The notes under the pieces were generated by a model. It saw nothing but the letters and a program-made list of their open reading frames with translations. It was not told the origin of the DNA and did no database searches. The translations under genes and the position numbers were made by a program. Source: Chloroflexota bacterium (lineage in GTDB: Bacteria; Chloroflexota; Dehalococcoidia; Lucifugimonadales; Australimonadaceae). Taken from it: a stretch of 33,851 nucleotides of DNA. Shown here piece after piece: positions 7,026 through 31,266 of the stretch. The stretch lies in contig JADFRC010000007.1 in NCBI GenBank assembly GCA_022561455.1, forward strand, positions 1 through 33,851, given 5' to 3'. How positions within the stretch are numbered: the stretch's first letter is position 1; the number at the start of each line of letters is the position of its first letter.

Positions 7026-8192
7026 CTACACGCGGGGTGCGAGGTTGGCCCTGTCTTGTCTTATCTGCCGCACGCCTTCGTCGACGTTCGTATCGATCAT
7101 GGGGTGGTCGGGGTCACGCTGGTAGCCCAGGGGGTCTTCTCCGCGCTGGACGCGCTCGATCTGTTCCTTCATGTGGCGGCGAAGCAGGACGACGCCGCGG
7201 TCGGAGTAGCTGAGGTGCTCGGCGGCGCGGTTCGAGATCGGGCCCTGCGTCTCCCAGGCCATCTGGTCCTGCGAGTTGACGCTGTGCAGGATGAACTTGG
7301 TCTCTGGGTGCGATTTCTCGGGGTCCTCCTTGATCGGGTCTTCGAAGGTGATCTCAGGATCGAAGGCGTCCTCGGGCTCGCTACCATCCTCCGTGGGATA
7401 GAAGAATATGCGCATGTGGAGGGTATGGGTGTCGTCGATGGGGACACGGAACTGCGAGCTGGCGCCCTGGCGCAGGATGTTCGGGAAGAGGACAGGGTGC
7501 TCGTCCACCATCCCGTTGACGTAGGTGCGCTTCTTCATGAGGGCGCCGTAATCGGTGACGTAGAACTCGTAGGATTCAACGTCGTCGGTGAAGCCCCGAG
7601 TGGTGCTCGGGGGGGTCCGTCCGCGCCCGATGAACTCCTGGTGCAGGATCTGGAGATGGGCCGGGTCCATGGAGTTCTCCATGGCCTGGAACCAGTTCGC
7701 GTTGAGCTTCGGGTGGATCAGCCAAACGCGCTTGCCGTCCTTCCGGAACAGCGTGTCGTAGTGGACCATGGGCGGCGCTGGCAGCGGGCCCATGTAGGCC
7801 CAGACCATGCCCAGGTAGATCTGGACCGGGTAGGCCGTGTGCTTGACGCTCTTCATGATCGCGTCGTTGCGCTCCGGCGGCGTCTCGAGGATGTTGCCCT
7901 CGCAGTCGTACAGCCAGCCGTGGTACGCGCACGAGATGCCGCGCTCCTCGACGCGGCCGTAGAGCAGCGAGGCGCCGCGGTGGGAGCAGTGGTCGGCCAG
8001 CAATCCGTGGCGTCCCGACTTGTCACGGAAGATGACGAGGTCCTCGCCGAGGATACGCACGAACTTGGTCGGGTGCTCTTCGTCGATATCCCGCGCTAGC
8101 GAGATAGGGTGCCAGTACATGCGGAGCACCGCTCCGGCAGGCGTGCCGGGGCCGATCCTGGTGAGCAGGTCGTTCTCTTCCTGAGTCAGCAT
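7026..8192 (-). CDS. Rieske [2Fe-2S] aromatic ring-hydroxylating oxygenase, alpha subunit
   Basis: Rieske motif CSHRGASLLYGRVEERGISCAYHGW; mononuclear Fe region ENSMDPAHLQILHQEF. Confidence 0.93.
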   Translation of the reverse strand: MLTQEENDLLTRIGPGTPAGAVLRMYWHPISLARDIDEEHPTKFVRILGEDLVIFRDKSGRHGLLADHCSHRGASLLYGRVEERGISCAYHGWLYDCEGNILETPPERNDAIMKSVKHTAYPVQIYLGMVWAYMGPLPAPPMVHYDTLFRKDGKRVWLIHPKLNANWFQAMENSMDPAHLQILHQEFIGRGRTPPSTTRGFTDDVESYEFYVTDYGALMKKRTYVNGMVDEHPVLFPNILRQGASSQFRVPIDDTHTLHMRIFFYPTEDGSEPEDAFDPEITFEDPIKEDPEKSHPETKFILHSVNSQDQMAWETQGPISNRAAEHLSYSDRGVVLLRRHMKEQIERVQRGEDPLGYQRDPDHPMIDTNVDEGVRQIRQDRANLAPRV

Positions 8193-8292: not shown

Positions 8293-8340
8293 CTTGGTGG
8301 AGCCGAGGGGATTCGAACCCCTGACCCCCTGCTTGCAAAG
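8293..8340 (-). repeat. orphan 3' half of tRNA-Ala(UGC); candidate attR
   Basis: 48 bp identical to 19790-19837 (3' part of the intact tRNA-Ala from the anticodon loop to CCA). No 5' half present. Confidence 0.9.
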
Positions 8341-8354
8341 TAGCTCGAGCGCTT

Positions 8355-8389
8355 CGCTATGCGATTAGTCGCGCGACGCTATGCGATTA
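8355..8389. repeat. direct repeat CGCTATGCGATTA x2 (8355-8367, 8377-8389) around palindrome GTCGCGCGAC (8369-8378)
   Basis: Two exact 13-bp copies with start-to-start spacing of 22 bp, immediately inside the tRNA fragment. Confidence 0.8.
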
Positions 8390-8568
8390 CCGCGCAGTTA
8401 GGGGGTCAGTTGTTCCTGGCGAGTGAGTGCCGGGCCGAGAGCGCCACCTGCGCCGAATCACGACCATTACCCCCCATCCGCGAGGCCGTGGTGCGGTACC
8501 CCCCTGCAGCGCAGGTTTGCGCTCGCCAGGGGGCTGTCGGCTGGGCCGCGGATGGAGACGCTGGTTCG

Positions 8569-9552
8569 TTACACGGCGACGGCCCGCTTGGCCTCCACCT
8601 CGGGGCGGTACTTCTCGCACAGCGTCAGCCAGTGCTCCGCCTGCTTGCGTGCCTTCGCCTCGTTCTTCGGACCTTCCTCTGGGTCCTCGCAGATCCAGGA
8701 GAAGGGCGGCCGCGGCGAGCCCATCTCGATGTAACCGGCGTACTCGTACGACTCGTGGCCGGCGCGTCCTCCATCGCCGTCGCCGCCACCGGTCCGGCCC
8801 GCGCTCATGTCGGCGAGGATCGCCGCCGCCTTCAGGTGCTCGCCCTCAGCGACCGCGTTGTAGGCTGCGAGGACGGGCCACGGTCCCGACCAGATCGCGT
8901 GCGACCAGCAGCCGACCGCGCCCATCATGTAGTAGGGGTAGAGCTGCGTCTGGTTGCAGAAGTGGGCGATCTTGCCGTCGATGATGTCGTGCAGCCGCTG
9001 GAACTCCGTCGGGTTCCGGTGGCTGTCCTTCATCGCCACGATGTTCGGGAGCTTGACGAGCTCCTTGAACGCCGACACAGGGATGTGGACGCGGTGGTTC
9101 GGGGGGTTGTGATAGATCATGATCGACAGGTCCGGGAAGAGCGCCGATATCCGCTGGTAGAAGGTAACGACGTCGCGGATCGGCAGCTTGTAGTAGTACG
9201 GCACCCCCAGCAGGACGCCCTGGCCGCCCGCTTCGCGCACGAAATTCATCTTCTGGACGACGAGCCGCGGGTTCGCCGCGGTGACGCCAAGCATCAGGGG
9301 GACCCGGTCGTCGACGGCCTCGATGCTCGCCCGCACGATCGTCCGCCACTCATCCTCGAGCAGGTTCCAGACCTGGCCGAACGTGCCCGTCGTCGCGAAC
9401 ATATGCACGCCGTCCTTGATCGCACGGTCGAGGCCCGCTTGCAGGTGGCCAACGTCGATCGTGTCGGTCGCGGTCATGTCGCCCGCATCGGCGGTCGCGA
9501 ACGCCGGCATCATGCCGCAGATCCCGTGGAGGTCGGCTGCTAGGTATGACAT
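8569..9552 (-). CDS. DapA/NAL superfamily lyase, possible aromatic hydratase-aldolase (NahE/PhdJ-like) rather than DHDPS
   Basis: TTGTFGQVWNLLEDEW, IMIYHNPPNHRVHIP (catalytic Tyr context), NIVAMKDSHRNPTEF (Schiff-base Lys). Confidence 0.8.
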   Translation of the reverse strand: MSYLAADLHGICGMMPAFATADAGDMTATDTIDVGHLQAGLDRAIKDGVHMFATTGTFGQVWNLLEDEWRTIVRASIEAVDDRVPLMLGVTAANPRLVVQKMNFVREAGGQGVLLGVPYYYKLPIRDVVTFYQRISALFPDLSIMIYHNPPNHRVHIPVSAFKELVKLPNIVAMKDSHRNPTEFQRLHDIIDGKIAHFCNQTQLYPYYMMGAVGCWSHAIWSGPWPVLAAYNAVAEGEHLKAAAILADMSAGRTGGGDGDGGRAGHESYEYAGYIEMGSPRPPFSWICEDPEEGPKNEAKARKQAEHWLTLCEKYRPEVEAKRAVAV

Positions 9553-9803
9553 CGATTCGTCTCCTCATCGGGTCGACTACCACGCACCATAGGCCAGTTG
9601 TCCGGGCGAAGCAACGTGTCCTGACGACTACCAGCGTTCTACATCCCTATGATGAAGCTTTTCTCGGTGCGCCTGGGCATCCTGGACGGGTCCTCGTGGC
9701 TCATGGACCGAAACACCGCACTTACCGTTAGAGCGGAATGAACCGAGCGGCAACGAACGGGCGGCCCCATGGGTGCTCGCTGCGCTCTCTTGCCCCCCCT
9801 GCT

Positions 9804-10901
9804 CTAGAACTCCTCGTAGTAGAAGTTGCCCGTGAGCCGCTGGAGAGGCCAGTCGGTCCAGCCGGCGAGGAACGCGTCCTCCTGGTGCGGGTTCTCGTGG
9901 TGATGGGCCATCCACGCGGGGAGCTCGATGAAGTCGCCCGCGGACCATTCGAACCGCTCCCCCTCGACGACGAGGACGCCGCTGCCCTGGAAGCAGTAGT
10001 AGATCACCGAGCTGTTGTGCCGGTGGTCACGGCCCTTGAAGCCCGGGACCAGCATCGTCATCTCCCACGCCGCGGTGGGGAGGGTCGGACCGCCCGTAAG
10101 CGGGTTCCGGTAGGTGAGCGTGTAGCAGTCGAACGGGTTCGGCTCATCCTCCTTCTGCTTCATCCTTGCGAAGGCCGCCGACGTCTGATGCCACGGGTAC
10201 CGGAATGCGGGCGGGTGGATGGTGGACTCGTCGTTCTTGACCTGGGGGCCCGCTGGATGGACTACCTCATGGTAGGGCCGCGCCTCTCCGCCGCGGCCCG
10301 GGAGGCCAAGATTGCCCCCCCAGATCCGCATGGCCTCGTCGACCCGGTCGGTCTGCAGGGCCTCCTTGACCTCGGGCCATTCCTCGGTGAACGTCGCCCC
10401 CACACCCGCACCGTGCAGGCCGTCCAGCCATAGCACGTAGGTATCCGAGTTGTTGATGTGGCCGTGGAAGTTCAGGTGCGGCGTGATGACGAGGTCCCCG
10501 TCATTGAGCGGGAAGGGCTCCCCGTTCACGAGCGTATAGGCATCCGGTGAGCCCTTGATGACGAACCTGGTGGCCTGGGCGCTGTGCCGGTGGGAGATCG
10601 CCTGCTCGCCGGGCCCAACGTACTGGATGCCGAGGCGCAGGGGGAAGTTCGCGTTCGGGGAGTTCCGGGGGTTGTGGAAGTGCGTGTCGCGCCGGAGGAC
10701 GCCGCCTTTGTCCTCGAAATTCTCGGCCAGACGGACCAGCTTGCCCGAGGCCACAACGGCAGGCTCGATATCCTCCCACTTCCACTGGAACGGCTTCAGC
10801 ACCTTGCTCTGCCGCCCCGCTCCCATCTCCATCTGGAGCGCGAGGTTCTGCTCCTCGAGGTACTTCTTGAGCGCATCGATGTCCGGAATCTCTACTGCCA
10901 T
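9804..10901 (-). CDS. bicupin dioxygenase, gentisate 1,2-dioxygenase / 1-hydroxy-2-naphthoate dioxygenase-like
   Basis: Two cupin modules: ISHRHSAQATRFVIKG..LNDGDLVITPHLNFHGHINNSDTYVLWLDGL and DHRHNSSVIYYCFQGSGVLVVEGERFEWSAGDFIELPAWMAHHHEN. Confidence 0.85.
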   Translation of the reverse strand: MAVEIPDIDALKKYLEEQNLALQMEMGAGRQSKVLKPFQWKWEDIEPAVVASGKLVRLAENFEDKGGVLRRDTHFHNPRNSPNANFPLRLGIQYVGPGEQAISHRHSAQATRFVIKGSPDAYTLVNGEPFPLNDGDLVITPHLNFHGHINNSDTYVLWLDGLHGAGVGATFTEEWPEVKEALQTDRVDEAMRIWGGNLGLPGRGGEARPYHEVVHPAGPQVKNDESTIHPPAFRYPWHQTSAAFARMKQKEDEPNPFDCYTLTYRNPLTGGPTLPTAAWEMTMLVPGFKGRDHRHNSSVIYYCFQGSGVLVVEGERFEWSAGDFIELPAWMAHHHENPHQEDAFLAGWTDWPLQRLTGNFYYEEF

Positions 10902-10938
10902 GCTGCCCCTCCCCTCTTGATGGAGACTGATGCCCCCC

Positions 10939-11322
10939 CTAGCCCAGACGCGCCGGCGAGGCGGCGGTCATCACCTCGAAGCTGTGCCCGTCAGGAGTGG
11001 TGAAGAAGGTGCGACGGCCACCGTTCAGTTCGTTCCACTGCATGTTCATATCACGGGTGCTCGTCCCGTACTTGAGGCCCTCAGCGACCACGCGACCCAG
11101 GATCGCGTCGAACTGGTCGTCGCCGACGTGGAACGCGAAGTGGAGCGGCTTATGCTCGCTGGCCGCTTCCTTGTCGTCGAAACGCATCACCAGGGTGTCG
11201 TTCACGCGAACGTGTCCTTGGTAGTTGCGCACGCCCAAGAACTCCCACCCCATGACGCGCGCCATGAGCTGGCTCGCCGCTTCCTTGTCCTTCACCGGGA
11301 TGACCGTGTGATCCAGATCCAT
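10939..11322 (-). CDS. VOC family protein (extradiol dioxygenase-like fold)
   Basis: LDHTVIPVKDKEAASQLMARVMGWEF..LHFAFHVGDDQFD..FFTTPDGHSFEVM; GGAGG upstream of ATG at 11322. Confidence 0.82.
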   Translation of the reverse strand: MDLDHTVIPVKDKEAASQLMARVMGWEFLGVRNYQGHVRVNDTLVMRFDDKEAASEHKPLHFAFHVGDDQFDAILGRVVAEGLKYGTSTRDMNMQWNELNGGRRTFFTTPDGHSFEVMTAASPARLG

Positions 11323-11620
11323 GGCTGCCTCCGCTGATATGACATCGTGGCTTCGGCAGCATGCTCCCATCATCGTTTCGAGTCAAACGTCGGTGAGGGC
11401 AGCGGGGAACTGCCGCAGCCTGGGAGCTCGCTCGAGCGGCCTCACTGCCTCGATGCGATTGCGGGCCGCTATCTCAAGCGTGACTATCCCAGGTGCCGCG
11501 CCGATGAGCCAGAGCACCATTCCCCGGGGTCTTATACTGGCGTCCACTCCCAACACTCCTATAGAAAGGGTCCCATGCTGGTGGTGCGATTCACGACCGT
11601 GGTTCGCTAAGGAGATCGGA

Positions 11621-12574
11621 TTGGCCAACCCCAAGCTTCGTCTCGGCTTTCGAGAGCCAGAGATCGACACCAACCGGCCCTTCGTGGATGGCACGGTGAA
11701 GGTCGAGGGCTTCGATCTCGAGATCTCCGACTATCGCGGCTGGGAGTACATCGACGCGTGGGACGCCAGCTTCGGCGGACTCATGCAGACCAAGGGGAAG
11801 GGCGATCACCCGTTCGTGTCGATCCCCGCTTTCCCGAACCGCAAGTTCCGCCTGTCCTACATATTCGTGAACGGCAGGGCAGGGATCGAGTCCCCGAAGG
11901 ACCTTGAGGGCAAGCGCGTCTACGTCAGCGGCACAGCCGGCATCTGGGCGCGGGGTGCTCTACTGAACTACTACGGGGTCGATTTCACCAAGGTCCACTG
12001 GCTGATGACAGGCGCTTCCGCGAAGAGCTGGGGCCCCGGCATCGACGTCGAGAGCCTGCCAGGGATCGCAGGACCCCTGGACGTGAAACTGGATACGATG
12101 CTGTTAGAGGGAGCTCTGGACGCGGTGATCGAACCGAACGTCCTGCCCTCCATCAGCCGCAGGGACCCGCGCGTGCGCCGGCTCTTTCCTGATTACCGGA
12201 CGGAGGAGCAAGACTACTGGAAGCGGACGGGCATCTTCCCGATCAGCCACGTTGTCTCGCTGACTCAGGAGTTCGTCGACCGCCACCCCGAAGCGCCGGT
12301 GGCCCTCTTGAAAGCCTATCGCCAAGCCCGTGACGTGGCCTTCGACCGGCTCTACGGGACGGACCCAGAGATCCTGGCGATCTCATGGGTCGCCTCGTTC
12401 ATCGACGACCAGCGCGCTCTCATGGGAAACGATTACTGGGCCTACAACATCCAGGGCAACGTGCGCGCGCTGGAAGCGATGATGCTGTTCGCGTATCAGA
12501 TGGGAGCCACTCCCACCCAGCTCGACTACACGAGCTTCTTCGACCCGGACGCGGCCGCGCTCCCGGGCTCCTAG
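11621..12574 (+). CDS. 4,5-dihydroxyphthalate decarboxylase (Pht5)-like / periplasmic-binding-fold protein
   Basis: RPFVDGTVKVEGFDLEI, YIFVNGRAGIESPKDLEGKRVYV, YWKRTGIFPISHVV, RALMGNDYWAYNIQGN; recalled Pht5 family pattern. TTG start with AAGGAGA upstream; no signal peptide. Confidence 0.78.
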   Translation: MANPKLRLGFREPEIDTNRPFVDGTVKVEGFDLEISDYRGWEYIDAWDASFGGLMQTKGKGDHPFVSIPAFPNRKFRLSYIFVNGRAGIESPKDLEGKRVYVSGTAGIWARGALLNYYGVDFTKVHWLMTGASAKSWGPGIDVESLPGIAGPLDVKLDTMLLEGALDAVIEPNVLPSISRRDPRVRRLFPDYRTEEQDYWKRTGIFPISHVVSLTQEFVDRHPEAPVALLKAYRQARDVAFDRLYGTDPEILAISWVASFIDDQRALMGNDYWAYNIQGNVRALEAMMLFAYQMGATPTQLDYTSFFDPDAAALPGS

Positions 12575-12755
12575 CCGGGCTGCCGGCATTTGCGGATTCG
12601 GGCCGTCCATTCCGGGCGCCCCACGGTGAAGCGCCCCTGGCCTCGGATCTTTTCCGTCTTCCTTTACGCGGCGCCGCGACTATGGAGTGCCGCGTTGACA
12701 GCAAAGATGGGCGGACATAGCATCGCGGACGACCGACCGACTGAAGGAGGCGCTC

Positions 12756-14048
12756 ATGCTTGCCATCCGCTCGGGAGAGACGGAGCAGAACGATGGACGG
12801 GGTTGGCCGGGCCAACGGACCTGGGGAACGATGAGACTGGCCATCGGCGTATCCGTGTTCTTCCTCTTCCTCGCCGCTGCCTGCGGCAGCGAGGAACCCA
12901 CGGCCACGCCTGTTCCGGACCAGCCAACCGGTGACCTGACCTTCGAGCAGGAGTGGGCCCAGCTGATCGCCGCCGCCCAAGAAGAGGGCGAGCTGCTGAT
13001 GTCGGTTGGTCCTCTGGGTGAGTACCGCGATCTGCTGGACCTTTTCCAGGAGACGTTCGACGTGGAATTCAAGGCGCAGACGGGAAGGGGCGCCTACCTG
13101 GCGGACCGGATCCTCGCGGAGCGGCAAGCCGGGAAGAAGCTGGTCGACATTGGCTTGATCAGCGTCGCTTCGACGTCCCGGAGACTCGTGCCCGCGGGGT
13201 CCACCGTTTCCATCCCAGACCTGCTGATCGACCCAGAGGTGGCGGACGAGTCGCTCTGGCACGACGGTCAGTTCTGGTTCGCCGACTGGTTCGTCGACGG
13301 AGCCGGGGACCATTCGTTCATCTACGCGGCGCGCGTGAACGATGGATACCAGTTCTGGTACAACACCGACAAGGTCAGCGAGGCGGAAGCGAACGCCGTC
13401 ACCGACCTGTGGGAGTTCGTTCAAGACCCGAAGTGGAGAGGGCTGCTCGGGGACCGGTCCTGGCAGGACCCAGGCCGGCTCGGTGGCCTGATTCGAGCCT
13501 ATTTCATGCCGGACCTAGGCCCGGAGTGGATAACGGCCTACTTCCAAGCGGGGCTGGTGACATTCACGGACGACGACAGGCTCGTGGACGACTGGGTGGC
13601 CCAAGGGGTCTATCCGATCCAGGTTGCCACGAGCGGCGGGTCACCGTCCGGTGACTTGCTGGAGCTGAGGGAGGCTGGCCTCCCCCTCAACGTCCGCCAG
13701 CTGGAGTCGGAGAAGGGCTGGATGGAAGCCCGTGGGTCAGGCTGCTGCATCGTGGCCTTCGAAGGCGGTCCCAACCCGAACGCACAGAAGCTGTTCGTGA
13801 ACTGGTGGCTCTCCCAGGACGTGCAGACGCGCATCAATGCGATCGAGCCCGGTATCACGCGGGTGTCGCTCAGGAACGACGTCCCGCTCGGCAACGTCGA
13901 CCCGTCCTATGCACGGACGCCGGGAAAGAACTACGTGTTCCGCGACGGCGACCCCAGGTACAGCGGAGAGGAACAGGAGATCGCACGACAGTTCATCGTC
14001 GAGACCTTCCTCAGGGAGACGGGTTGGGCAGGGGAGCAGCGGAACTGA
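12756..14048 (+). CDS. extracellular solute-binding lipoprotein of an iron/organic-acid type ABC importer
   Basis: Signal peptide and lipobox (MRLAIGVSVFFLFLAAACGSEEPTATPVP); family-1 SBP-like body. AAGGAGG before ATG 12756; alternative start ATG 12831. Confidence 0.82.
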   Translation: MLAIRSGETEQNDGRGWPGQRTWGTMRLAIGVSVFFLFLAAACGSEEPTATPVPDQPTGDLTFEQEWAQLIAAAQEEGELLMSVGPLGEYRDLLDLFQETFDVEFKAQTGRGAYLADRILAERQAGKKLVDIGLISVASTSRRLVPAGSTVSIPDLLIDPEVADESLWHDGQFWFADWFVDGAGDHSFIYAARVNDGYQFWYNTDKVSEAEANAVTDLWEFVQDPKWRGLLGDRSWQDPGRLGGLIRAYFMPDLGPEWITAYFQAGLVTFTDDDRLVDDWVAQGVYPIQVATSGGSPSGDLLELREAGLPLNVRQLESEKGWMEARGSGCCIVAFEGGPNPNAQKLFVNWWLSQDVQTRINAIEPGITRVSLRNDVPLGNVDPSYARTPGKNYVFRDGDPRYSGEEQEIARQFIVETFLRETGWAGEQRN

Positions 14049-14112
14049 TCGGCCCGCCGCACAACGACGGAAGAGCCGGAGCCAGCCGATCCTTGGGCAT
14101 GCGAAGGAGCAC

Positions 14113-15261
14113 ATGGAAATCAAGTTCGGACTGATCAGCGCAGACTCGCACGCGGCCTTCGACCGTGACGACTTCACGTCACGGATGTCGGTCAGCAAGT
14201 GGGGGGACCGCATCCCGCACGTCGCGGAGCATGAGCGCGACGGGGAGCGCGTGGACGGCTGGGCGATCTACGATAGGCCCCCGCGGGGTGACGTGTGCAA
14301 CTGCCCCGCCGTCATGGGCGACCCGTTCCCCCACTGGCCCAAGCGGTGGGAGGAAGTGCCCAAGATGGTCTACGATCCGCACGAGCGCCTCAAGGCCCTC
14401 GACATCGACAGGGTCGACGCGGAGGTGCTCTTCCCCAATCCGCCGGGGGGCAGCTACTACCAGTTCGGGGACGTCGAGTTCGAGCTGGACGCGATACGAG
14501 CGTACAACGACATCCTCTCCGACTGGGTGCGGGTCAGCGACCGGTACCTGCCGCTCGTGGCCATCCCGTACCTGAGCAGCCCGAAGACCATGGCGGGCGA
14601 GATCCAACGGGCGGTGGAGGGGGGCCACCGCGGGATCAACTTCGCCGGACGGACGCCGGAGTCGCTCCCTCATCTCACCGACCCCCACTGGGACCCGGTC
14701 TGGGATGTGTGCCAAGAGCTGGGGTTCCCGGTCCACTTCCACGGCTCGGCGGGGATCAACGTGGGGAAGAGCTCCAAGGAGTGGAGCGGCTATTCGACGC
14801 GCCAGGCCCACTCGGCGTCCACCAGCACGTCGGCGGTCACGCCCGCGCAGATCATGCCGCAGCTCATCTTTTCGGGGGTGACGGAGCGCTTCCCCCGCCT
14901 CAAGTTCGCGTTCGCGGAGGCCGGCATCGGCGGGCTCAACTACGTGGTCGCGGCATGCGACCACGAATGGGAGCGGCGCCATCTGTGGACCGAGGGCATG
15001 AGCACCCGTCCCAGCGAGATCGTGCACCGGCAGGTCTACGTGAACTTCTGGTTCGAGGCGGAGGGCATCAAGCTCCGCGATGAGATCGGCGTCGCCAACC
15101 TCATGTGGGAAGCGGACTACCCCCACGTGGCCTCGTACTACCCGAACTCATGGGAGGCGGTCGAGAGGGTGCTCGACGGAGTGCCTGAGGACGACCGCCG
15201 GAAACTGCTCTACGAGAACGCCCTCCGGGTATACCAGATCAAGGAGACGGTTCCCGCATAG
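14113..15261 (+). CDS. amidohydrolase family 2 (ACMSD/LigW-like metal-dependent hydrolase or decarboxylase)
   Basis: LISADSHAAF, RGINFAG, FPVHFHGSAG, LKFAFAEAGIGGLNYV..CDHEWERR, LMWEADYPH, ENALRVYQ. Confidence 0.88.
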   Translation: MEIKFGLISADSHAAFDRDDFTSRMSVSKWGDRIPHVAEHERDGERVDGWAIYDRPPRGDVCNCPAVMGDPFPHWPKRWEEVPKMVYDPHERLKALDIDRVDAEVLFPNPPGGSYYQFGDVEFELDAIRAYNDILSDWVRVSDRYLPLVAIPYLSSPKTMAGEIQRAVEGGHRGINFAGRTPESLPHLTDPHWDPVWDVCQELGFPVHFHGSAGINVGKSSKEWSGYSTRQAHSASTSTSAVTPAQIMPQLIFSGVTERFPRLKFAFAEAGIGGLNYVVAACDHEWERRHLWTEGMSTRPSEIVHRQVYVNFWFEAEGIKLRDEIGVANLMWEADYPHVASYYPNSWEAVERVLDGVPEDDRRKLLYENALRVYQIKETVPA

Positions 15262-15285
15262 GGGACCATCGCCAGGGAGGTCCCT

Positions 15286-16413
15286 TTGGCACCGAGATAC
15301 CCGTTGATCAGCACGGACGACCACGTCCAAGAGCCGCCGGACCTCTGGTCCTCCCGGCTCTCCAAGAAACGGTGGGGCGACCGCGTTCCACACCTGGAGC
15401 GGAGCGCCAAGGGCGCGGAACGGTGGATGGTCGACGGGCAGGTGCTCCTTGACGGGCATTCCGCCCGGGCTGGTGCCCTGATGCCCGACCGCAACGTCGA
15501 GCCGGCCCGATGGGACGAGGTCCCGCCGGCGGCGTACCAGCCGGCGGAACGGCTCAAGGTCATGGATACTGCGGGCGTCAGCTATTCGGTTCTCTTCCCC
15601 ACCGTCGCAGGGATGGCCGGAGAGACCTTCGGGCGGCTCAAGGACCCGGAGCTCGAGGTCGCCTGCGTGCAGGCCTACAACGACTGGCTGATCGAGGAGT
15701 GGGCCGCGGCAAGCGACCGCTTCGTCCCACAGTGCATCGTCCCCATCTGGCCGCCCGAGGCCACCGTGGCGGAGATCCGGCGGGCCGTGGACATGGGCCA
15801 CCGCGGCGTGGTCTTCCCCGCGGTGCCCATGGACCTGCGCGACGTGCCCCACGTGGCCGGCCCCGAGTACGACCCGGTATGGGCCGTCTGCGAGGAGCTG
15901 GACGTGCCCCTCTGCCTCCATGCGGGATCGGCGCCGGGGCTGCAGTACCCCGTGTCTCCGGCGATGGCACCCGCCCTGGCCGGAGCACTCGACGCCGTGA
16001 CGAAGCCCGTCTCCAGCGTGTTCGTCCTCTCCCTGCTCCTGTTCTCGCGGATGCTGATCCGGCACCCGAAGCTGCGCGTGGTGTTCGCGGAGAGCGCGCT
16101 CAGCTGGAGCATGCTCTTCCTGGAGTGGGCCGACCATCAGTTCGAGCACGATGGCCTCGAGCGTGAGGGATACGAGCTAACGCCGTCGCAGATGTTCCAC
16201 CGCCAGTGCTACCTGAACGCGTGGTTCGACAAGGTCGCGCCGTTCGCCCCCTACGTGGGGACGGACCGCGTTCTGTGGTCCACGAACCTCCCACTGGCGA
16301 CATCCACCTGGCCGGGGACGCAAGAGACGATCGAGCATTGCTTCCGGGGCGTCTCCGAAGAGGACACGAAGCTGGTCTTGTGGGAAAACGCGGCGAGCCT
16401 CTACCGGCTCTGA
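15286..16413 (+). CDS. amidohydrolase family 2 paralogue with altered C-terminal metal-site motif
   Basis: LISTDDHVQEPPDLW, VPLCLHAGSA, LRVVFAESALSWSMLFLEWADHQFEHD, VLWSTNLPLATSTWP (SDYPH expected), ENAASLYRL. TTG start with AGGGAGG upstream. Confidence 0.85.
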   Translation: MAPRYPLISTDDHVQEPPDLWSSRLSKKRWGDRVPHLERSAKGAERWMVDGQVLLDGHSARAGALMPDRNVEPARWDEVPPAAYQPAERLKVMDTAGVSYSVLFPTVAGMAGETFGRLKDPELEVACVQAYNDWLIEEWAAASDRFVPQCIVPIWPPEATVAEIRRAVDMGHRGVVFPAVPMDLRDVPHVAGPEYDPVWAVCEELDVPLCLHAGSAPGLQYPVSPAMAPALAGALDAVTKPVSSVFVLSLLLFSRMLIRHPKLRVVFAESALSWSMLFLEWADHQFEHDGLEREGYELTPSQMFHRQCYLNAWFDKVAPFAPYVGTDRVLWSTNLPLATSTWPGTQETIEHCFRGVSEEDTKLVLWENAASLYRL

Positions 16414-16564
16414 TGAAGCACTCACTTTTCCATCCAGGACGGTCCGGGAGTGCGCTCGGCAGGCGGGCACATCTGAGTAGCTGGCAGGGCCGTCATGCGG
16501 CGGGTCCAAGCCAGTTGGTCTGCCGCAGAGGCAGGGGAGCCTGACGCGCGTGAGAGGGTCAGCG

Positions 16565-18373
16565 ATGGCGGACACAGAGGTAGGGCGCGCGGGCCTGGCT
16601 CGTAAGCGCCCACGATTCCGGCCCGGCACGGGCCACTTCGTCATGGCGGCCGTGCTGCTGCTGCTGGGCTTCTACCTCATCTGGCCGGTCCTCATCCTGC
16701 TGGTCAATAGCTTCAACACGGCCCGCGACATGTTCGTCGATCCGCGCGTCTGGGGTCTGGACCACTGGCGAGCCGCATACGCCGAACCCAGCAGGTTGCT
16801 ACGGCCCATCACGAACTCGCTGCTGATCTGGGGTCTGACCGTCCTGATCAGCTTTCCCATCGGGATAGTCATCTCCTGGGTGCTGGCGCGGACGAAGGTT
16901 CCCTTCAGTCACTCCCTCGAATTCATGTTCTGGATCGCGTATATGGTGCCTGGACTGCCGGTGACCATCGCGTGGATGACGCTGCTGGACCCATCCATCG
17001 GTTTCATCAACCAGGCGCTCGTCAAGCTGCCGTTCATCGATCAGGGGCCGTTCAATATCTTCAGCGTGGCCGGCATCGTGTGGGTCGGGCTGATGGGCAA
17101 CGGCATCGCCATCAAGGTCATGCTGCTGACGCCGGCCTTCCGGAACATGGATGCCGCCATGGAGGAGGCCGCGCGGATCAGCGGCGCCAACAACCTCCGC
17201 ACCATGCTCCGCGTCACGCTGCCCTTGATGATCTCCCCCATCACGCTCATCTTTGCGCTGCAGCTGCTCCGCGTCTTCCAGTCCTTCGAGACCGAGTGGC
17301 TCCTCGGGCTGCCGATCGGGTTCTTCGTCTACTCCACGAAGATCTATGCGCTCGTCCGCACCGAGATCCCCAACTATGGCGAGGCGACCGCGCTGGCGAG
17401 CCTCACGCTGATCGTCATCGCCTTCATCATCCCGCTGCAGCGCTGGATCCTACAGCGGCGCCGGTACACGACCGTCACGGGGAGCTTCAGGCCCGGCCTC
17501 ATCGACCTGGGGCCCTGGAACCAGATCTCGTTCGTCCTCATCGGCACCCTGTTGCTGCTGCTGACGATCATGCCTGTCCTCGTGCTGTTCGTTGCAGGCC
17601 TGATGAATAGGATCGGGTATTTCCAGCTGGGCTTCACCATGGACCACTGGATCTTAGTGCTGGGCGACCGGGCGTTCCTGGGAGCGTTGAGGACCACCCT
17701 GCTGCTCGGCTTCATGGCCGCCGTCGGAAGCCCGCTCCTGTTCTCGTTGCTCGCCTACATCTTGGTGCGGACGCGCCTGCCGGGACGTACGTTGCTAGAC
17801 ATGGTCATCTGGGGATCGGGAGCGATCCCGGGCATCCTCTCCGGACTGGGGCTGCTGTTGGTGGTCCTTGGCACCCCTGGCCTCACCCTGCTCTACGGCA
17901 CCATCTGGATCCTGTTCCTCGTGGTGATCATCTCGGGGAACACCACGGGCGTGAACATCATGAAAGGCGTCTTCGTCCAGGTCGGGCAGGACATGGAGGA
18001 CGCCGCGCGGGTCGCCGGGGCTGGGTGGGTCAGGACGTATTTCAGGATCTGGATCCCGCTGCTCATGCCCATGCTCGTTCTCCTGGCAGTGATGAATTTC
18101 ACTGCGGCCGCCACAGCAACCAGCTCGGTCATTCTGCTCGCCTCGCGGGATACCTGGACGCTCTCCATCCTTGCGCTGATCCAGGCCGGACAAGGCGGCG
18201 AGGGCCGAGAGGTCGCGAGCATCATCAGCATTTTCATCGTTATGATTTCGGTGATCGGAGCGCTCGTAGTGAGGACGATAGGCCTGCGCCTCGGTCTGCG
18301 GCACAACATGCGTGCAGGCGAGACCCGCGGAGCCCAGGCAGCCGCCGTGGCTCCCGTCGGACGGTCGACGTGA
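16565..18373 (+). CDS. ABC transporter permease, two fused permease domains (FbpB/ThiP-like)
   Basis: ~12 hydrophobic segments; two EAA-type loops: EEAARISGANNLRTMLRVTLPLM and EDAARVAGAGWVRTYFRIWIPLL. Confidence 0.9.
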   Translation: MADTEVGRAGLARKRPRFRPGTGHFVMAAVLLLLGFYLIWPVLILLVNSFNTARDMFVDPRVWGLDHWRAAYAEPSRLLRPITNSLLIWGLTVLISFPIGIVISWVLARTKVPFSHSLEFMFWIAYMVPGLPVTIAWMTLLDPSIGFINQALVKLPFIDQGPFNIFSVAGIVWVGLMGNGIAIKVMLLTPAFRNMDAAMEEAARISGANNLRTMLRVTLPLMISPITLIFALQLLRVFQSFETEWLLGLPIGFFVYSTKIYALVRTEIPNYGEATALASLTLIVIAFIIPLQRWILQRRRYTTVTGSFRPGLIDLGPWNQISFVLIGTLLLLLTIMPVLVLFVAGLMNRIGYFQLGFTMDHWILVLGDRAFLGALRTTLLLGFMAAVGSPLLFSLLAYILVRTRLPGRTLLDMVIWGSGAIPGILSGLGLLLVVLGTPGLTLLYGTIWILFLVVIISGNTTGVNIMKGVFVQVGQDMEDAARVAGAGWVRTYFRIWIPLLMPMLVLLAVMNFTAAATATSSVILLASRDTWTLSILALIQAGQGGEGREVASIISIFIVMISVIGALVVRTIGLRLGLRHNMRAGETRGAQAAAVAPVGRST

Positions 18374-18394
18374 CATCAAAGAGGGGGTAGCAAA

Positions 18395-18931
18395 TTGAAG
18401 AGCTTGACTCGACCTCGAACGATAGTCTGGATGGTTCTGTTGCTTGTTGCAGTGGGCGTGGTCGGCGCTTGCGCGTCGGCGACGCCGACGGCGACCCCGA
18501 CGCCGACGGTTCCACCAACGGCGACCCCGTTCCCGCTGGGGGAGCTCAGGATCGAGCCACCCGTGCTCCTCTGGCCTGATGGGCGCGTGCGTAACTCAGG
18601 CATCTGGGTCTATGCATCGGGTCTCCAGCCGGGCCAGTGGTTCGAGTTGTCCTTCGACGTCCGCGGCAAGAAGGCGACTCCCACGCTCGCCGGCCTCGTT
18701 CTGCCACAGGCCGACGAGACGGGAGCGTTCGCCGGCGCTTTGCTGGTCGATGGCCGGGAAGGCCGGGACTTCTTGAGCACCGAAATGACGGCAACCTCCG
18801 GCCCGGTTACGATTGAGCTCACCGATCTGGATACGGGGCAAGTGATGGCGACCGCTTCCTGGGTCCTTTGCGGCCTCGATCGGGATCCAGCGGTCTGTGG
18901 CCCTGCGGAGGAGCTACTGCCGCTGGAATGA
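18395..18931 (+). CDS. putative lipoprotein of unknown function
   Basis: Signal peptide and lipobox (VWMVLLLVAVGVVGACAS) followed by a TPTATPTPTVPPTATP linker. TTG start. Confidence 0.65.
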   Translation: MKSLTRPRTIVWMVLLLVAVGVVGACASATPTATPTPTVPPTATPFPLGELRIEPPVLLWPDGRVRNSGIWVYASGLQPGQWFELSFDVRGKKATPTLAGLVLPQADETGAFAGALLVDGREGRDFLSTEMTATSGPVTIELTDLDTGQVMATASWVLCGLDRDPAVCGPAEELLPLE

Positions 18932-19617
18932 CCGGCGCAGCTGGCGAGATTCCAAGATCGTCCGGCCCACAGCACGCCGATTCGGGCACGTTCCTGCGCA
19001 TATGGCTCCCAGGCATCGTGCTGATGACTGGGTGGAACGTGGCCTGGGTGCTCGCCTGGCAGAACTTTCTCTTCGACGCGTTCGCTCATGGCTCCAGCGC
19101 GGGCGTCACGGTGTTCGCAAACACGGACGGCCGCGGCCCGGAGGTCTGGATCACGGCCGCCGTGGGGTTCGTGCTCGGAGCCGCCGGCCTCGCGTTATGG
19201 GCAAGCAGCGCCCAGGTCTTTCCGGCTCGTGAGCCGCTGCTTGCCAGTCGCCTCTGGCGCATCAGCGGGATAGCGCTCACGCTCATCGGGCTCTCGTTGA
19301 TCATCTTGTTCCCATCGACCGTCAGCGTCGTCATCGACGAGGGCGCAGCGCGCGTTGCCGTGGAGACCCGCTGGCTGTACTGGAAGACGACCGAAGGGCT
19401 CGCGGCGGACGATGTCGATAGAGTTTCGTTCAGAGACTACCGGCTTTCCGTCGGGCCGCGGCCCGAAGACTGCAAGGTCCAGACGGGCCTCAGCATCGTC
19501 GATCGCCACAGGAACGCGCTCGCGATCCCAGCCGGCTTCGATCATGAGGCGGTAGCGAATGGCATCGCCGACAAGCTCGGCATCCGGCTCGAAGTCATCG
19601 GCGTGCAAGAGTGCTGA
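18928..19617 (+). CDS. membrane protein of unknown function
   Basis: ATG overlaps the TGA of the preceding gene (ATGA at 18928-18931). Hydrophobic segments IVLMTGWNVAWVLAW, AAVGFVLGAAGLALWASS, GIALTLIGLSLIILFPSTVSVVI. Confidence 0.6.
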   Translation: MTGAAGEIPRSSGPQHADSGTFLRIWLPGIVLMTGWNVAWVLAWQNFLFDAFAHGSSAGVTVFANTDGRGPEVWITAAVGFVLGAAGLALWASSAQVFPAREPLLASRLWRISGIALTLIGLSLIILFPSTVSVVIDEGAARVAVETRWLYWKTTEGLAADDVDRVSFRDYRLSVGPRPEDCKVQTGLSIVDRHRNALAIPAGFDHEAVANGIADKLGIRLEVIGVQEC

Positions 19618-19791
19618 TGCGAGAACCGGCTCTGCTGGGTCACCTCGTCCCTGCCAGGGCCCCCGTTCGTCGTCGACGACGGTGGGTCAAGCTTGTCGTC
19701 GCCCTGCCACGGCGGGGCTGACTGCCGGCAAGCGGGCCAAGGGGCGCTGGGCTACGTCGAGAAAGCTCGTTTTACCGGTCTATCATGCGCT

Positions 19792-19867
19792 TGGTGGAGC
19801 CGAGGGGATTCGAACCCCTGACCCCCTGCTTGCAAAGCAGGTGCTCTCCCAACTGAGCTACGGCCCC
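19792..19867 (-). tRNA. tRNA-Ala(UGC)
   Basis: Reverse complement GGGGCCGTAGCTCAGTTGGGAGAGCACCTGCTTTGCAAGCAGGGGGTCAGGGGTTCGAATCCCCTCGGCTCCACCA: cloverleaf, anticodon TGC, G3:U70 alanine identity pair, encoded CCA. Confidence 0.97.
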
Positions 19868-19908: not shown

Positions 19909-21774
19909 TTACGTCCCGGTCAGGTCGAGGCCGGCGAGTGTCTCGCCGACGACCTCGTAGCGATCGAACGGCGGCATGAAGTAGACGCCCGCGATCCGGC
20001 CCCGGACGGCCCGCAGCAGCTCCCGGCTCACGGCGATGCCTTCGGCCGCCGCACCGTCACCGGCGGTGGCGAGCCTTTGGAAGACCGCGTCCGGCACGGA
20101 GATACCCGGCACTTCATTGTGCAAGAAGCGGGCGTGCCGCTCGCTGCGCAGCGGTAGCACGCCGAGGAGCACCGGCAGCGGGAAGCCGCCGAGCCGCTCC
20201 GCCACGCGCTCCACCGCCTCCGGTTCGTACACGGGCTGCGTCAGCAGGAAGTGGGCGCCAGCCGCGACCTTGCGCTCGAGCACGCGGAGCTCGCGGTCCA
20301 TGTCCGGTGCGTTCAGGTTGAGCGCCGCCCCGATGAAGAAGGACGTCGGCCCCTCGAGCGCGCGGCCGTTCGCATCGACCCCCTGGTTGAAACCCGCCAT
20401 CAGCTTGATCAGGCCGGAGGCCGTGATGTCGCTGACGGCGGTCGCCTGCGGGTAGTCGCCGGTGAGCGGCACGTCGCCCATGACGGTGAACACGTTCCGC
20501 ACGCCGAGCGCGTGGGCGCCGAGGAGGTCCGAGTGGAGCGCCAGCAGGTTCCGGTGGCGCAGCGACATGTGCATGATCGTCTCGACGCCCAGCTTCGACT
20601 GCACGAGGCTGCACATGGCGAGCGCGCTCATCCGGCCCTGCGCCCGTGGGCTGTCCGTGACGTTGATCGCGTGGACGGCCCCGACGATGGGCCGCAGCTT
20701 CTCAAGCGACGCGCCTGCGTCGAAGCCGCGGGGGGGCGCGAGCTCCGCCGTGACCACGAAGTCGCCGGCCGCGAAGAGCTCCGCGAGGCCCGTCGCCGAC
20801 GGCTTCGGCGCTTCGGACGGGGCTATGGACGGAGCGGCTGGGCGCGCGGGCGTCGCGACGGCGGCCGGGCGGCCAGCCGAACCACCATCCAAGGGCTCGA
20901 CGCCCCGGAGCGCGTCGCGCACCTTCGCGATGTGCTCGGGCGTCGTGCCGCAGCAGCCGCCCAGGAGCCGGGCGCCGGCCACCGCGATCTGGCGGACGGC
21001 GTCCGAGAAGTACTTGGGGTCGGCCGAGTATTCGATCCGTCCGTCCACGTAGGCCGGCAGGCCGGCGTTCGGCTGCGCCGCGATGGGCAGCTCAGCGACG
21101 CGCGCCATGCGCTCGACCACGTCGCGTATGAGGTCGGGGCCGACGCTGCAGTTCGCGCCGAACGCTGCGAGGTCCAGCTCGCCCAACGCGGCCGCGACCT
21201 CCTCCGGCGTATCGCCGCCAAGGGTCACGCCCTCCTCGTCGAACGTCATCTGGGCAACGATCGGCAGCGGCGAGACCGACCGGACGGCTGCCACCGCCAA
21301 TCTCACCTCGGGCAGCGACGAGAACGTCTCCAGCATGAAGAGGTCGACGCCCGCGTCCGCGAGCGCCGCGGCCTGCTGAGCGAAGGCGTTGTGCCCCGTC
21401 GCCGAGTCCAGCGCGCCGAACGGGGAGGAGTCGCGCCCGAGCGGCCCGATGCCACCCGCGATCCAGATGCTCTGCCCGACGAGCCGCCGCGCCTGCTCGG
21501 CGATCGCCACGGCGGCGCGGTTGATCTCCTCGACCCGGCCCTCGACGCCCGCGGCTGCGAGCCGGAGTGCGTTCGCACCGAAGGTGTTGGTCTGGATGAC
21601 CTCGGCGCCGGCGCGCAGGTAGTCGAGGTGGATCGCCTTGACCACGTCGGGGTGCGTCAGGTTGGCGAGGTCCAGCGGGTCGTCCTCGACGCCGCGCTCG
21701 TAGAGCTGTGTGCCCATCGCGCCGTCGCAGAGCAGCGCTCCGTGGGCAAGGCGTTCGGTGAAGGAGAGGGGCAT
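19909..21774 (-). CDS. bifunctional homocysteine S-methyltransferase / 5,10-methylenetetrahydrofolate reductase
   Basis: N-terminal DGAMGTQLYERG..QTNTFGANALRL..FGANCSVG..LLGGCCGTTPEHI; C-terminal MTHFR domain (TAELAPPRGFD..FNQG..GAALNLN..LLTQPVYEPE..LLGVLPLRS). Confidence 0.93.
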   Translation of the reverse strand: MPLSFTERLAHGALLCDGAMGTQLYERGVEDDPLDLANLTHPDVVKAIHLDYLRAGAEVIQTNTFGANALRLAAAGVEGRVEEINRAAVAIAEQARRLVGQSIWIAGGIGPLGRDSSPFGALDSATGHNAFAQQAAALADAGVDLFMLETFSSLPEVRLAVAAVRSVSPLPIVAQMTFDEEGVTLGGDTPEEVAAALGELDLAAFGANCSVGPDLIRDVVERMARVAELPIAAQPNAGLPAYVDGRIEYSADPKYFSDAVRQIAVAGARLLGGCCGTTPEHIAKVRDALRGVEPLDGGSAGRPAAVATPARPAAPSIAPSEAPKPSATGLAELFAAGDFVVTAELAPPRGFDAGASLEKLRPIVGAVHAINVTDSPRAQGRMSALAMCSLVQSKLGVETIMHMSLRHRNLLALHSDLLGAHALGVRNVFTVMGDVPLTGDYPQATAVSDITASGLIKLMAGFNQGVDANGRALEGPTSFFIGAALNLNAPDMDRELRVLERKVAAGAHFLLTQPVYEPEAVERVAERLGGFPLPVLLGVLPLRSERHARFLHNEVPGISVPDAVFQRLATAGDGAAAEGIAVSRELLRAVRGRIAGVYFMPPFDRYEVVGETLAGLDLTGT

Positions 21775-21885
21775 GGCGTCGGCGAGCTCCGGTCCGGGCT
21801 CAAGACTCCCGGGCCGACATTGTACCGTGGGCACGCGCTCCTCAAAGTGTCGACCGCCCCCTCCGAACCACGGGCCGCCCTCCCC

Positions 21886-21979
21886 CCCTGTCATTCCGAG
21901 CGGAGCGAGGAATCTCTCGGGCGCGGCCGGTGAGAGATTCCTCGTCGGCCTTCGGCCTCCTCGGAATGACAGGGGGAGG
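21886..21979. repeat. imperfect palindromic intergenic repeat (CCTGTCATTCCGAGCGGAGCGAGGAATCTCTC ... GAGAGATTCCTCG..CCTCGGAATGACAGG)
   Basis: Long inverted arms in the gap between a panE-like gene and the methyltransferase/MTHFR gene. Confidence 0.75.
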
Positions 21980-26318: not shown

Positions 26319-26559
26319 GGCCTTGCCTCAGAACCTTCGCCCCGCTCCTGTAACGTCGGTGCCCCACGACCGTTCCGACCATCCCCCCAGCCCCCTTCCC
26401 TTCGACAGGCTCAGGGCAGGCTCTGGCCAGGAAGGGGGTGATAAAGCCAAATACGGGGGACACCCCTGTATCCCCGACAGTGGGCGTGCCCCCGGCAAAG
26501 GGGCTTCACCCCTCTGCACACCCTGTCCGGTGCATGAAAAGGGGTTTTGAGGCAAGGCC
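26319..26559. mobile_element. MITE-like element, copy 1
   Basis: Terminal inverted repeats GGCCTTGCCTCAGAACC / GGTTTTGAGGCAAGGCC (1 mismatch in 17). Flanking direct repeat ACGATAGTG (26310-26318 and 26560-26568). No ORF with recognisable transposase. Related copies at 30801-31266. Confidence 0.75.
26398..26426. repeat. small dispersed repeat (CCCTTCGACAGGCTCAGGGCAGGCTCTGG) nested in the MITE hairpin
   Basis: Absent from the equivalent hairpin of the 30.8 kb copy (CCCCCTTCCTGCCAGGAAGGGGG). Confidence 0.7.
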
Positions 26560-26619
26560 ACGATAGTGGGCGCGGCCGCATGCCGTCAACCGCGCCGCGT
26601 GGGCTACGGGGCCGCCGGT

Positions 26620-27855
26620 CTACTCGCGGACGCGCTCGGCGTCCGGAGGGGCGTGCCCGATCTGCAGCTCGAGGATCTCGCCGGTCGATGGGTCGACGAT
26701 CAGGACGGCGGCCTGGTCCAGCCTCAGCTGCTTGATGCTCCCCGGCCGGCCATCCACGATCAGCTTGGTGCCCCGCCGCGTGAGGTGAGCGACGTGCCTC
26801 GTGCCGTCCTCGACGGCGACCACGCTCACGTCGACGCCGAGGAGGTTCCGGCCGTCGTGGATGACCTTGATGCCATCGATGCGCGCCGCGACGTGGACCA
26901 TGCCAACGTCGGTGGGGGCGCCGCCCTGCGCATCCGTCGTGCCCCCCTCTGGGCCCGCGTCCGTCCCGCGCACCTGATGGGCGACATCGGTTCTGCTGAG
27001 CAGCTCCTCCAATCCCTGGTGGCTCCGTTCCATCGCCTCCCGGAGCCGCTGGAGCTCCCGCCTGCTCGGCCCTTCACCGACCATGCTCTCGAATCTCGCG
27101 ATGCGCTCCCGGAACGCTTCTATCTGGGTGCTCAACAGCACGATCCGCCGCATGGACACCTCGCGCCGCGACGGCGATCCGGGCGTCATGCTCGGCGGCT
27201 CGTGGTCCGGTCCGGCGGCCGGCGCCGAGTCGTCGAGGGCCGGCAGCGTTTCGACGATCGAGCGCACGCGAGCGACCGCGAGGCCCTGCGCACGGGCCCG
27301 GTGGCGCTCGATCTGCTCGACCAGGTCGGGCACGAACCGCCCGCGGCCGGTGCTCGTCACGGCCTCGAGCTCACTCATCCTGCGCTCCATGAACCGCGCG
27401 TGCAGCCTCGACTTGCGCTCGTCGGTGACGGCGAGGGCAAGCTGAGCGCGCTCGCCGGCGCGCATCACCGGATAGAGGAGCTCGCCCGGAGCGCTGTCCT
27501 GGGCCGCGAGGACCGTGCCCGTGCTCGAGCCGGCGACGACGAGCAGCACCACGAGCGCGACGGTCGCCAGGCGCGGTGCGCGGCCGGCCCCGGCGAACGG
27601 CAGGCGCCACCAGGCCCGCCGGCTACGCTTGCGGTCGATAGCGTCGTGAAGCCGGAGGCGGGCCGCGCGCTTGCGGTCCTGGTCCGGGAGGAAAGCGAAC
27701 GCCTCAGCGGCCGCAACGCCCGCGGACAGCGCGTCGCGGAGCTCGGCCGCGTGCTCGGGGAAGTCGCGGACGCAATCCTCGATGCTCTCGCCGCGCGCGA
27801 GCACGCGGTCGATGCACCCATCGAGTATCTCTGCGAAGGACCGGCGCTCCGTCAT
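26620..27855 (-). CDS. DUF5667-type membrane protein, putative sigma-factor-associated
   Basis: FAEILDGCIDRVLARGESIEDCVRDFPEHAAELRDAL, one TM (LATVALVVLLVVAGSSTGTVLA), SAPGELLYPVMRAGERAQLALAVTDERKSRLHARFMERRMSELE. ATG overlaps the stop of the upstream sigma gene. Confidence 0.75.
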   Translation of the reverse strand: MTERRSFAEILDGCIDRVLARGESIEDCVRDFPEHAAELRDALSAGVAAAEAFAFLPDQDRKRAARLRLHDAIDRKRSRRAWWRLPFAGAGRAPRLATVALVVLLVVAGSSTGTVLAAQDSAPGELLYPVMRAGERAQLALAVTDERKSRLHARFMERRMSELEAVTSTGRGRFVPDLVEQIERHRARAQGLAVARVRSIVETLPALDDSAPAAGPDHEPPSMTPGSPSRREVSMRRIVLLSTQIEAFRERIARFESMVGEGPSRRELQRLREAMERSHQGLEELLSRTDVAHQVRGTDAGPEGGTTDAQGGAPTDVGMVHVAARIDGIKVIHDGRNLLGVDVSVVAVEDGTRHVAHLTRRGTKLIVDGRPGSIKQLRLDQAAVLIVDPSTGEILELQIGHAPPDAERVRE

Positions 27856-30800: not shown

Positions 30801-31266
30801 GGCTTTGCCTCAAAACCTGCGCCCCGCTCCCGTAACGTCGGTGCCCACGACCGTTTCGACCATCCCCCTGGCCCCCTTCCTGCCAGGAAGGGGGAACTGT
30901 ATCCGGATACGGGGGACACCCCCGTGCCCCCGGCAAAGGGGCTTTGCCCCTCTGCACTCCCGGTCCGGTGGATGAAAAGAGGTTTTGAGGCAAGGCTCGT
31001 CAGGGCGGGGGTGGTCAAGCCCAATACGGGGGACACCGGTATCCCCGGACAGTGGGCATGCCCCCGGCAAAGGGGCTTCGCCCCTCTGCACTCCCTGTCC
31101 GGTGGATGAAAAGAGGTTTTGAGGCAAAGCTCGTCAGGGCGGGGGTGGTCAAGCCCAATACGGGGGACACCGGTATCCCCGGACAGTGGGCGTGCCCCCG
31201 GCAAAGGGGCTTCGCCCCCCTGCACACCTCGTCCGGTGGACGAAAAGGGGCTTTTGAGGCAAGGCC
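30801..31266. mobile_element. MITE-like element, copy 2, with its right half tandemly amplified
   Basis: Left end GGCTTTGCCTCAAAACC at 30801-30817 and right ends GGTTTTGAGGCAAGG / GGCTTTTGAGGCAAGGCC. Repeat units at 30996-31129 and 31130-31264 (period ~134 bp), homologous to the 26.3 kb copy. Confidence 0.8.

Follow-up and report, generated by a model that had tools for sequence, protein, structure and literature searches.

The tRNA-Ala locus and its features

The window, i.e., the whole stretch of 33,851 nucleotides that was analysed, is the entire contig C30 of a Chloroflexota genome (G000, 2.10 Mb in 196 contigs). Its sole tRNA gene, as called by ARAGORN, is a minus-strand tRNA-Ala(TGC), which lies next to the gene of a homocysteine S-methyltransferase/MTHFR fusion protein (MetHF), while a second, partial copy of the tRNA lies next to a Rieske oxygenase gene. 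The genomes G001 and G002, to which the features below are compared, belong to the same genus as G000; most of the genomes compared are draft assemblies.

7026..8192, minus strand: Rieske oxygenase of the left flank, native (PF00355; 95% identical orthologues in G001 and G002; adjoins a tRNA array in G002)
8293..8340, minus strand: displaced tRNA-Ala 3′ half (positions 31-76 plus 2 nt), attR-like end (48/48 to 19790-19837; same fragment in G001 and G010)
8341..8417, no strand: element arm adjoining the fragment (86-88% identical to G001 C150:35774-35847; hairpin-forming, z -3.6)
8569..9552, minus strand: DHDPS-family aldolase, closest in PDB to trans-o-hydroxybenzylidenepyruvate hydratase-aldolase/PhdJ (PF00701, E 1e-22; PDB 6dao, E 4e-28)
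9804..10901, minus strand: bicupin dioxygenase, gentisate/5-aminosalicylate 1,2-dioxygenase-like (PF07883; NF049978 and TIGR02272 below equivalog cut-offs; PDB 2d40, 3bu7)
10939..11322, minus strand: glyoxalase/extradiol-dioxygenase superfamily protein (PF00903, E 6e-7)
11621..12571, plus strand: NMT1/SsuA-like solute-binding protein, start codon uncertain (PF09084, E 4e-5; Binatia homologues 70-72% identical)
12756..14045, plus strand: ABC solute-binding lipoprotein (PF13416, E 1e-5, just under the curated cut-off)
14110..15258, plus strand: amidohydrolase-2 family protein 1, PtmU3/DitZ-like (PF04909; PDB 6omp, 8uyr)
15286..16410, plus strand: amidohydrolase-2 family protein 2 (PF04909, E 1e-30)
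16550..18370, plus strand: fused two-domain ABC permease (PF00528; TIGR03262 below cut-off)
18395..18928, plus strand: putative lipoprotein, no family in Pfam or NCBIfam
18868..19614, plus strand: putative membrane protein, no family in Pfam or NCBIfam
19790..19837, minus strand: right copy of the 48-bp repeat, attL-like end (3′ half of the intact tRNA)
19792..19867, minus strand: intact tRNA-Ala(TGC) with encoded CCA, candidate integration target (ARAGORN; adjacency of MetHF and tRNA-Ala kept in the other family genomes examined)
19909..21894, minus strand: homocysteine S-methyltransferase/MTHFR fusion (MetHF) of the right flank, native (PF02574, PF02219; adjacency to tRNA-Ala conserved)

An Rfam tmRNA match at 19792-19867 scores below the gathering threshold and is the tRNA-Ala itself.

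The duplicated tRNA-Ala end

The segment 8293-8340 is identical to 19790-19837 in 48 of 48 positions, both copies being in the same orientation; over a slightly longer span (8293-8343 and 19790-19840), 50 of 51 positions match. This is the second-ranking exact direct repeat of the window, the longest being a 63-bp unit that belongs to an unrelated local repeat. In the right flank, 134-bp repeats that are up to 97% identical are found in interspersed and tandem form at 26319-26620 and 30801-31254. About 2.5e-18 repeats of this type are expected in random sequence of the same composition, and an expectation of the order of 1e-18 excludes a chance origin. When the tRNA was searched against the whole G000 genome, only these two copies were found at the level of the 48-bp repeat, all remaining matches being different tRNAs.

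On the right, the repeat covers the 3′ half of the intact tRNA-Ala(TGC). In the left copy, 8295-8340 corresponds to tRNA positions 31-76, which run from the final base on the 5′ side of the anticodon stem through the loop and the remaining 3′ half, and 8293-8294 are two bases past the CCA. Thus, the initial annotation was right in describing an intact minus-strand tRNA-Ala(UGC) on the right and its 3′ half alone on the left, as well as in seeing here the geometry of an island, with an intact tRNA at one end and a displaced 3′ fragment at the other, on the correct side and in the correct orientation. The extent that it proposed, 8293-19867, holds for the ends of the repeats and has to be shortened on the right: the tRNA has its 5′ end at 19867, and the interval therefore takes in the tRNA 5′ half. 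The cargo proper occupies 8341-19789, or 11.4 kb.

Cargo genes and composition

The Pfam, NCBIfam, and PDB matches of the cargo genes bear out an earlier proposal that the segment carries a catabolic cassette. They support its reading as an uptake and degradation cassette for aromatic-type compounds that would have been acquired horizontally; its likely role is to import an aromatic acid, the presumed substrate, and to cleave its ring. No ATPase gene for the ABC permease is present in the island. The gene order solute-binding protein, amidohydrolase 1, amidohydrolase 2, permease is repeated on alphaproteobacterial contigs, with the amidohydrolases and permease 65-73% identical and the solute-binding protein 40-44%. 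Binatia share the aldolase, both amidohydrolases, and the NMT1-type solute-binding protein, but with other cupins. A single contig scan with amidohydrolase 1, which may leave out records near G000, returned no identical island and found related cargo in Alphaproteobacteria, Deltaproteobacteria/Binatia, and Chloroflexi MAGs. Amidohydrolase 1 has close homologues in just two other genomes of the family, G001 (70%) and G006 (65%).

The composition of the island is mildly unusual and lends weak support to a foreign origin. Comparison of k-mers inside and outside, as suggested initially, gave a raised tetranucleotide distance for the island (0.18-0.19 vs 0.135 +/- 0.021 for 7-kb windows of the same genome, or 2-2.5 SD above), while its GC content (65.1%, vs 68.5% in the left flank and 71.0% in the right flank) falls inside the range of own-genome windows. 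An older boundary at 6.9 kb, where low GC begins, was considered and rejected because the Rieske gene is equally GC-poor (64%) and yet native in both G001 and G002.

A cargo-free site in a congener

Both flanks of the island are found in G002. Contig C36 of this genome carries ftsA, mraW, AGAT, malate synthase, AMP ligase, PanE, and the start of MetHF, and contig C12 carries the rest of MetHF and tRNA-Ala, followed by the genes for the Rieske protein, E2, glyoxalase, PNPOx, and DLH. Most flanking proteins are 89-98% identical to those of the window, the lowest value being 85%. None of the cargo genes (8.5-19.6 kb) lies between the G002 flanks, and the 11.4-kb island is considered real because a close relative is devoid of the block. 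The window sequence that separates the left fragment from the Rieske gene can be aligned, as far as the CCA, with the G002 sequence that separates the last of the tRNA copies from the Rieske gene, and the left-flank homology ends at the fragment.

The search for an empty site in relatives, proposed at the outset, has thus yielded a site with both flanks and no cargo, although not a pristine one: tRNA-Ala is separated from the Rieske flank by about 480 bp, which hold a GIY-YIG gene and two further tRNA copies. In this small tandem tRNA/GIY-YIG array (C12, L015:1487-2130), the GIY-YIG gene is also present as a partial second copy, and a truncated copy lies upstream. The two extra tRNA copies have the tRNA-Ala body and the same 3′ end with a different anticodon stem-loop; they are called Pro(CGG) and have no T33.

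Such an array shows that tRNA copies can arise at this locus by another route, and it might be supposed that an unrelated duplication of this kind placed the tRNA 3′ half at 8293, the cargo being native. We regard this as very improbable. The cargo is missing from both congeners at orthologue-level identity: no amidohydrolase is found in G002 at E<=1e-80, the nearest one in G001 is 70% identical, and the nearest permease in the congeners is 63-64% identical, vs about 95% for most flanking genes. Relatives carrying the same genes in place, which would have spoken against an insertion, were not encountered in G001 or G002. Moreover, the left-flank homology stops at the fragment, and the sequence that follows the fragment is common to G001.

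The arm adjoining the left fragment

The arm at 8341-8417 contains two 12-bp direct repeats, GCTATGCGATTA, at 8356-8367 and 8378-8389 (a 22-bp period), and the sequence AGGGGGTCAG at 8400-8409, which is inverted with respect to CTGACCCCCT at 8321-8330 within the tRNA fragment. In G001, the same fragment and arm are found near a Rieske gene 95% identical to that of the window, with different cargo inside; this copy of the arm keeps both direct repeats and the inverted AGGGGGTCAG. Beyond the arm, G001 has genes for an aldo/keto reductase, a luciferase-like monooxygenase, and a GAF protein. Among 250 genomes of the order, the arm is present in G000 and G001 only; IMG/VR gave 0 matches, and a search for the arm repeats in integrase-bearing elements gave no convincing match. 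The arm is a candidate recombinase binding site. The fragment and arm could also fold together into a long hairpin (8321-8409) closed by a 10-bp CTGACCCCCT/AGGGGGTCAG stem, in the window and G001 alike.

The recurrence of the left junction in the separate G001 assembly bears on the possibility of an assembly artefact, i.e., of an unrelated contig joined to the tRNA contig via the common tRNA sequence. The window is one of 196 contigs, false joins are possible at short repeats, a common repeat of about 56 bp terminates two G010 contigs, and the right junction (19789|19790) is seen without an independent copy. Nevertheless, fragment and arm occur together in G001, both flanks are syntenic with G002, and the layout and orientation match an island exactly, so that a false join appears highly improbable.

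The G001 copy also raises the question of timing. A single insertion could have preceded the split of G000, G001, and G002, with the arm and fragment kept in G000 and G001, the cargo replaced later, and the element lost from G002 by recombination between the repeats. The identity of fragment and arm between G000 and G001 (86-88%) is not far from the overall divergence of these genomes, and both fragments are near the Rieske orthologue. On the other hand, 2.8 kb of other DNA separate the fragment from the Rieske gene in G001, the genes inside are wholly different, and no cargo orthologue is common to the genomes at congener-level identity. Such an ancestral insertion is a possibility that we hold only tentatively; since it differs from the preferred reading, an integrated island, in timing, the confidences in the two overlap. 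The insertion of the island may be recent, or it may be older in the genus with subsequent cargo turnover, and both timings are allowed because the arm is common to G000 and G001. The 2.8-kb stretch in G001 (C150, L147:12980-15700) holds small ORFs of unknown function and a methyltransferase gene, possibly as the remnant of a tandem second element.

tRNA-Ala as a recurrent integration site

The pair MetHF-tRNA-Ala is conserved in more distant genera, and the sequence after the tRNA varies. A tRNA search in 16 genomes of the family found isolated tRNA-Ala 3′ halves in G000, G001 (C150:35728-35776), and G010 (C155:22060-22109) only; seven genera with an intact tRNA-Ala have none (G003, G004, G005, G007, G008, G014, G015). 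Of the two G010 contigs that end in the same approximately 56 bp, one enters an intact tRNA-Ala and MetHF, and the other enters a different element. The assembly may have broken at a repeat present at both ends of an island, or empty and occupied alleles may coexist. In G009, which represents another genus of the family, tRNA-Ala is followed after 110 bp on its 3′ side by the start of a gene that encodes a 304-aa tyrosine integrase and is directed away from the tRNA. tRNA-Ala is reused by other elements in the family. In G006 (C345), a tRNA-Ala(CGC) gene is followed downstream by two integrase genes.

Integrases at other tRNA genes

A search of the whole G000 genome with the tyrosine integrase profile PF00589 gave no match on contig C30, and no recombinase, excisionase, relaxase, conjugation, or phage/virion gene was found in the cargo with Pfam and NCBIfam. 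Accordingly, the conjugation or virion genes that define an ICE or a prophage are absent among the annotated cargo genes.

A homologue of the G009 integrase, 62% identical, is present elsewhere in G000 (C128:12953-13888) and starts about 110 bp 3′ of tRNA-Arg(TCT), while an isolated 48-nt tRNA-Arg 3′ half (positions 29-76), 100% identical, lies at C4:3162-3209. Thus, this anatomy occurs in the host at a second tRNA, where an integrase accompanies it. Besides the integrase, the tRNA-Arg(TCT) element (C128:12782-16769) encodes a DUF499 protein with a match (E 3e-172) to HmaC, the Hma defence ATPase, and the tRNA-Arg 3′ half on C4 adjoins a LigB-like dioxygenase gene. A further decayed tRNA island is seen on C143 (L165:30-441), where a C-terminal integrase remnant lies about 150 bp downstream of tRNA-Leu(TAA).

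Farther away in the order, the close homologues of the G009/C128 integrase nearly all adjoin a tRNA. Start positions 108-179 bp from the tRNA 5′ end, with the gene pointing away, were noted for 10 of the 14 homologues examined. For one such tRNA, a tRNA-Val, there are fragments in the form of 5′ halves that end at position 42 and a 3′ half that begins at position 31, limits that bracket the crossover region at the anticodon loop. The isolated tRNA-Val 5′ halves (positions 1-42) are present in the genomes of two of those homologues; in Islander, islands with 5′ tRNA fragments account for 159 of 3919 (PMC4383910). Since the anatomy matches, an integrase of the G009/C128 class may have inserted the window island.

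Proposed origin of the island

The claim that the segment is an integrated element is strengthened by the cargo-free flanks in G002, the reuse of the tRNA, and the integrases adjacent to tRNA genes. We hold it very probable that 8341-19789 is a genomic island integrated at tRNA-Ala, with a catabolic cassette and an insertion of the tyrosine-recombinase type. In the mechanism proposed, a tyrosine-recombinase-type event would have targeted the tRNA-Ala(TGC) gene that lies downstream of metH/metF, in its anticodon-loop region, by recombination inside the 46-48 bp common to target and element and with the crossover presumably in the anticodon loop. An intact tRNA would have been rebuilt at 19792-19867, the displaced 3′ half would have been left at 8293-8340, and the cassette for aromatic compounds would have come in horizontally.

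As no recombinase, relaxase, or phage structural gene is found, the island should today be either decayed or non-autonomous, in the latter case perhaps as a cis-mobilizable-type island that needs an integrase from an element of the same class. Its own integrase would have been lost or would be supplied in trans; circumstantially, candidate helper elements exist in the lineage, namely that of G009 at tRNA-Ala and that of G000 at tRNA-Arg. A bolder extension, which we think unlikely, is that the tRNA-Ala site of the genus hosts a family of non-autonomous islands sharing only the att arm, swapping whole catabolic cassettes, and moved in trans by anticodon-loop integrases located at other tRNAs. 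If this were true, arm-sharing islands moved in trans would contribute to the very extensive catabolic paralogy of these genomes; G000 has 60 Rieske matches in 2.1 Mb.

Comparison with known systems

The window island is a new example of an already known kind of mobile DNA. Like the tDNA islands of Islander with anticodon-loop subsite A, it has an intact tRNA and a displaced 3′ fragment in the same orientation and on the correct side, its length is within the range of 2-200 kb, and its crossover region fits the anticodon loop (PMC4383910). Islander demands an integrase gene inside the island and rejects candidates without one (PMC4383910). Unlike the islands of that collection, the window island has no integrase inside; it is therefore incomplete by these criteria and would escape island finders that require an integrase.

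With cis-mobilizable elements (CIMEs; PMC3146451), the window island appears to share the att-like ends kept without integration or transfer genes: the 48-bp repeats are intact, no integrase was found by profile, and no relaxase or conjugation domain is present among the annotated ORFs. Mobilization in tandem or in trans characterizes CIMEs, and the window island is likened to them by its gene content and ends.

The nearest published parallel that it resembles is the set of integrase-less ssrA islands of Dehalococcoides, where 15 islands without an integration module have been discussed as possibly cis-mobilizable or fixed in the chromosome (PMC3146451). In both cases, catabolic (in Dehalococcoides, respiratory) cargo is bounded by an RNA gene and the direct repeat of that gene, and the cargo at one hot spot is exchangeable, with many islands devoid of an integration module. 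The systems differ in that the serine recombinase DsiB and tmRNA operate in Dehalococcoides, and tRNA-Ala and candidate tyrosine integrases are found here. An integrase-less island at a tRNA used by other elements of the family is a candidate case of mobilization in trans. With its exact boundaries and the site that is free of cargo in a congener, it also illustrates how catabolic cassettes enter a lineage rich in oxygenase and transporter paralogues.
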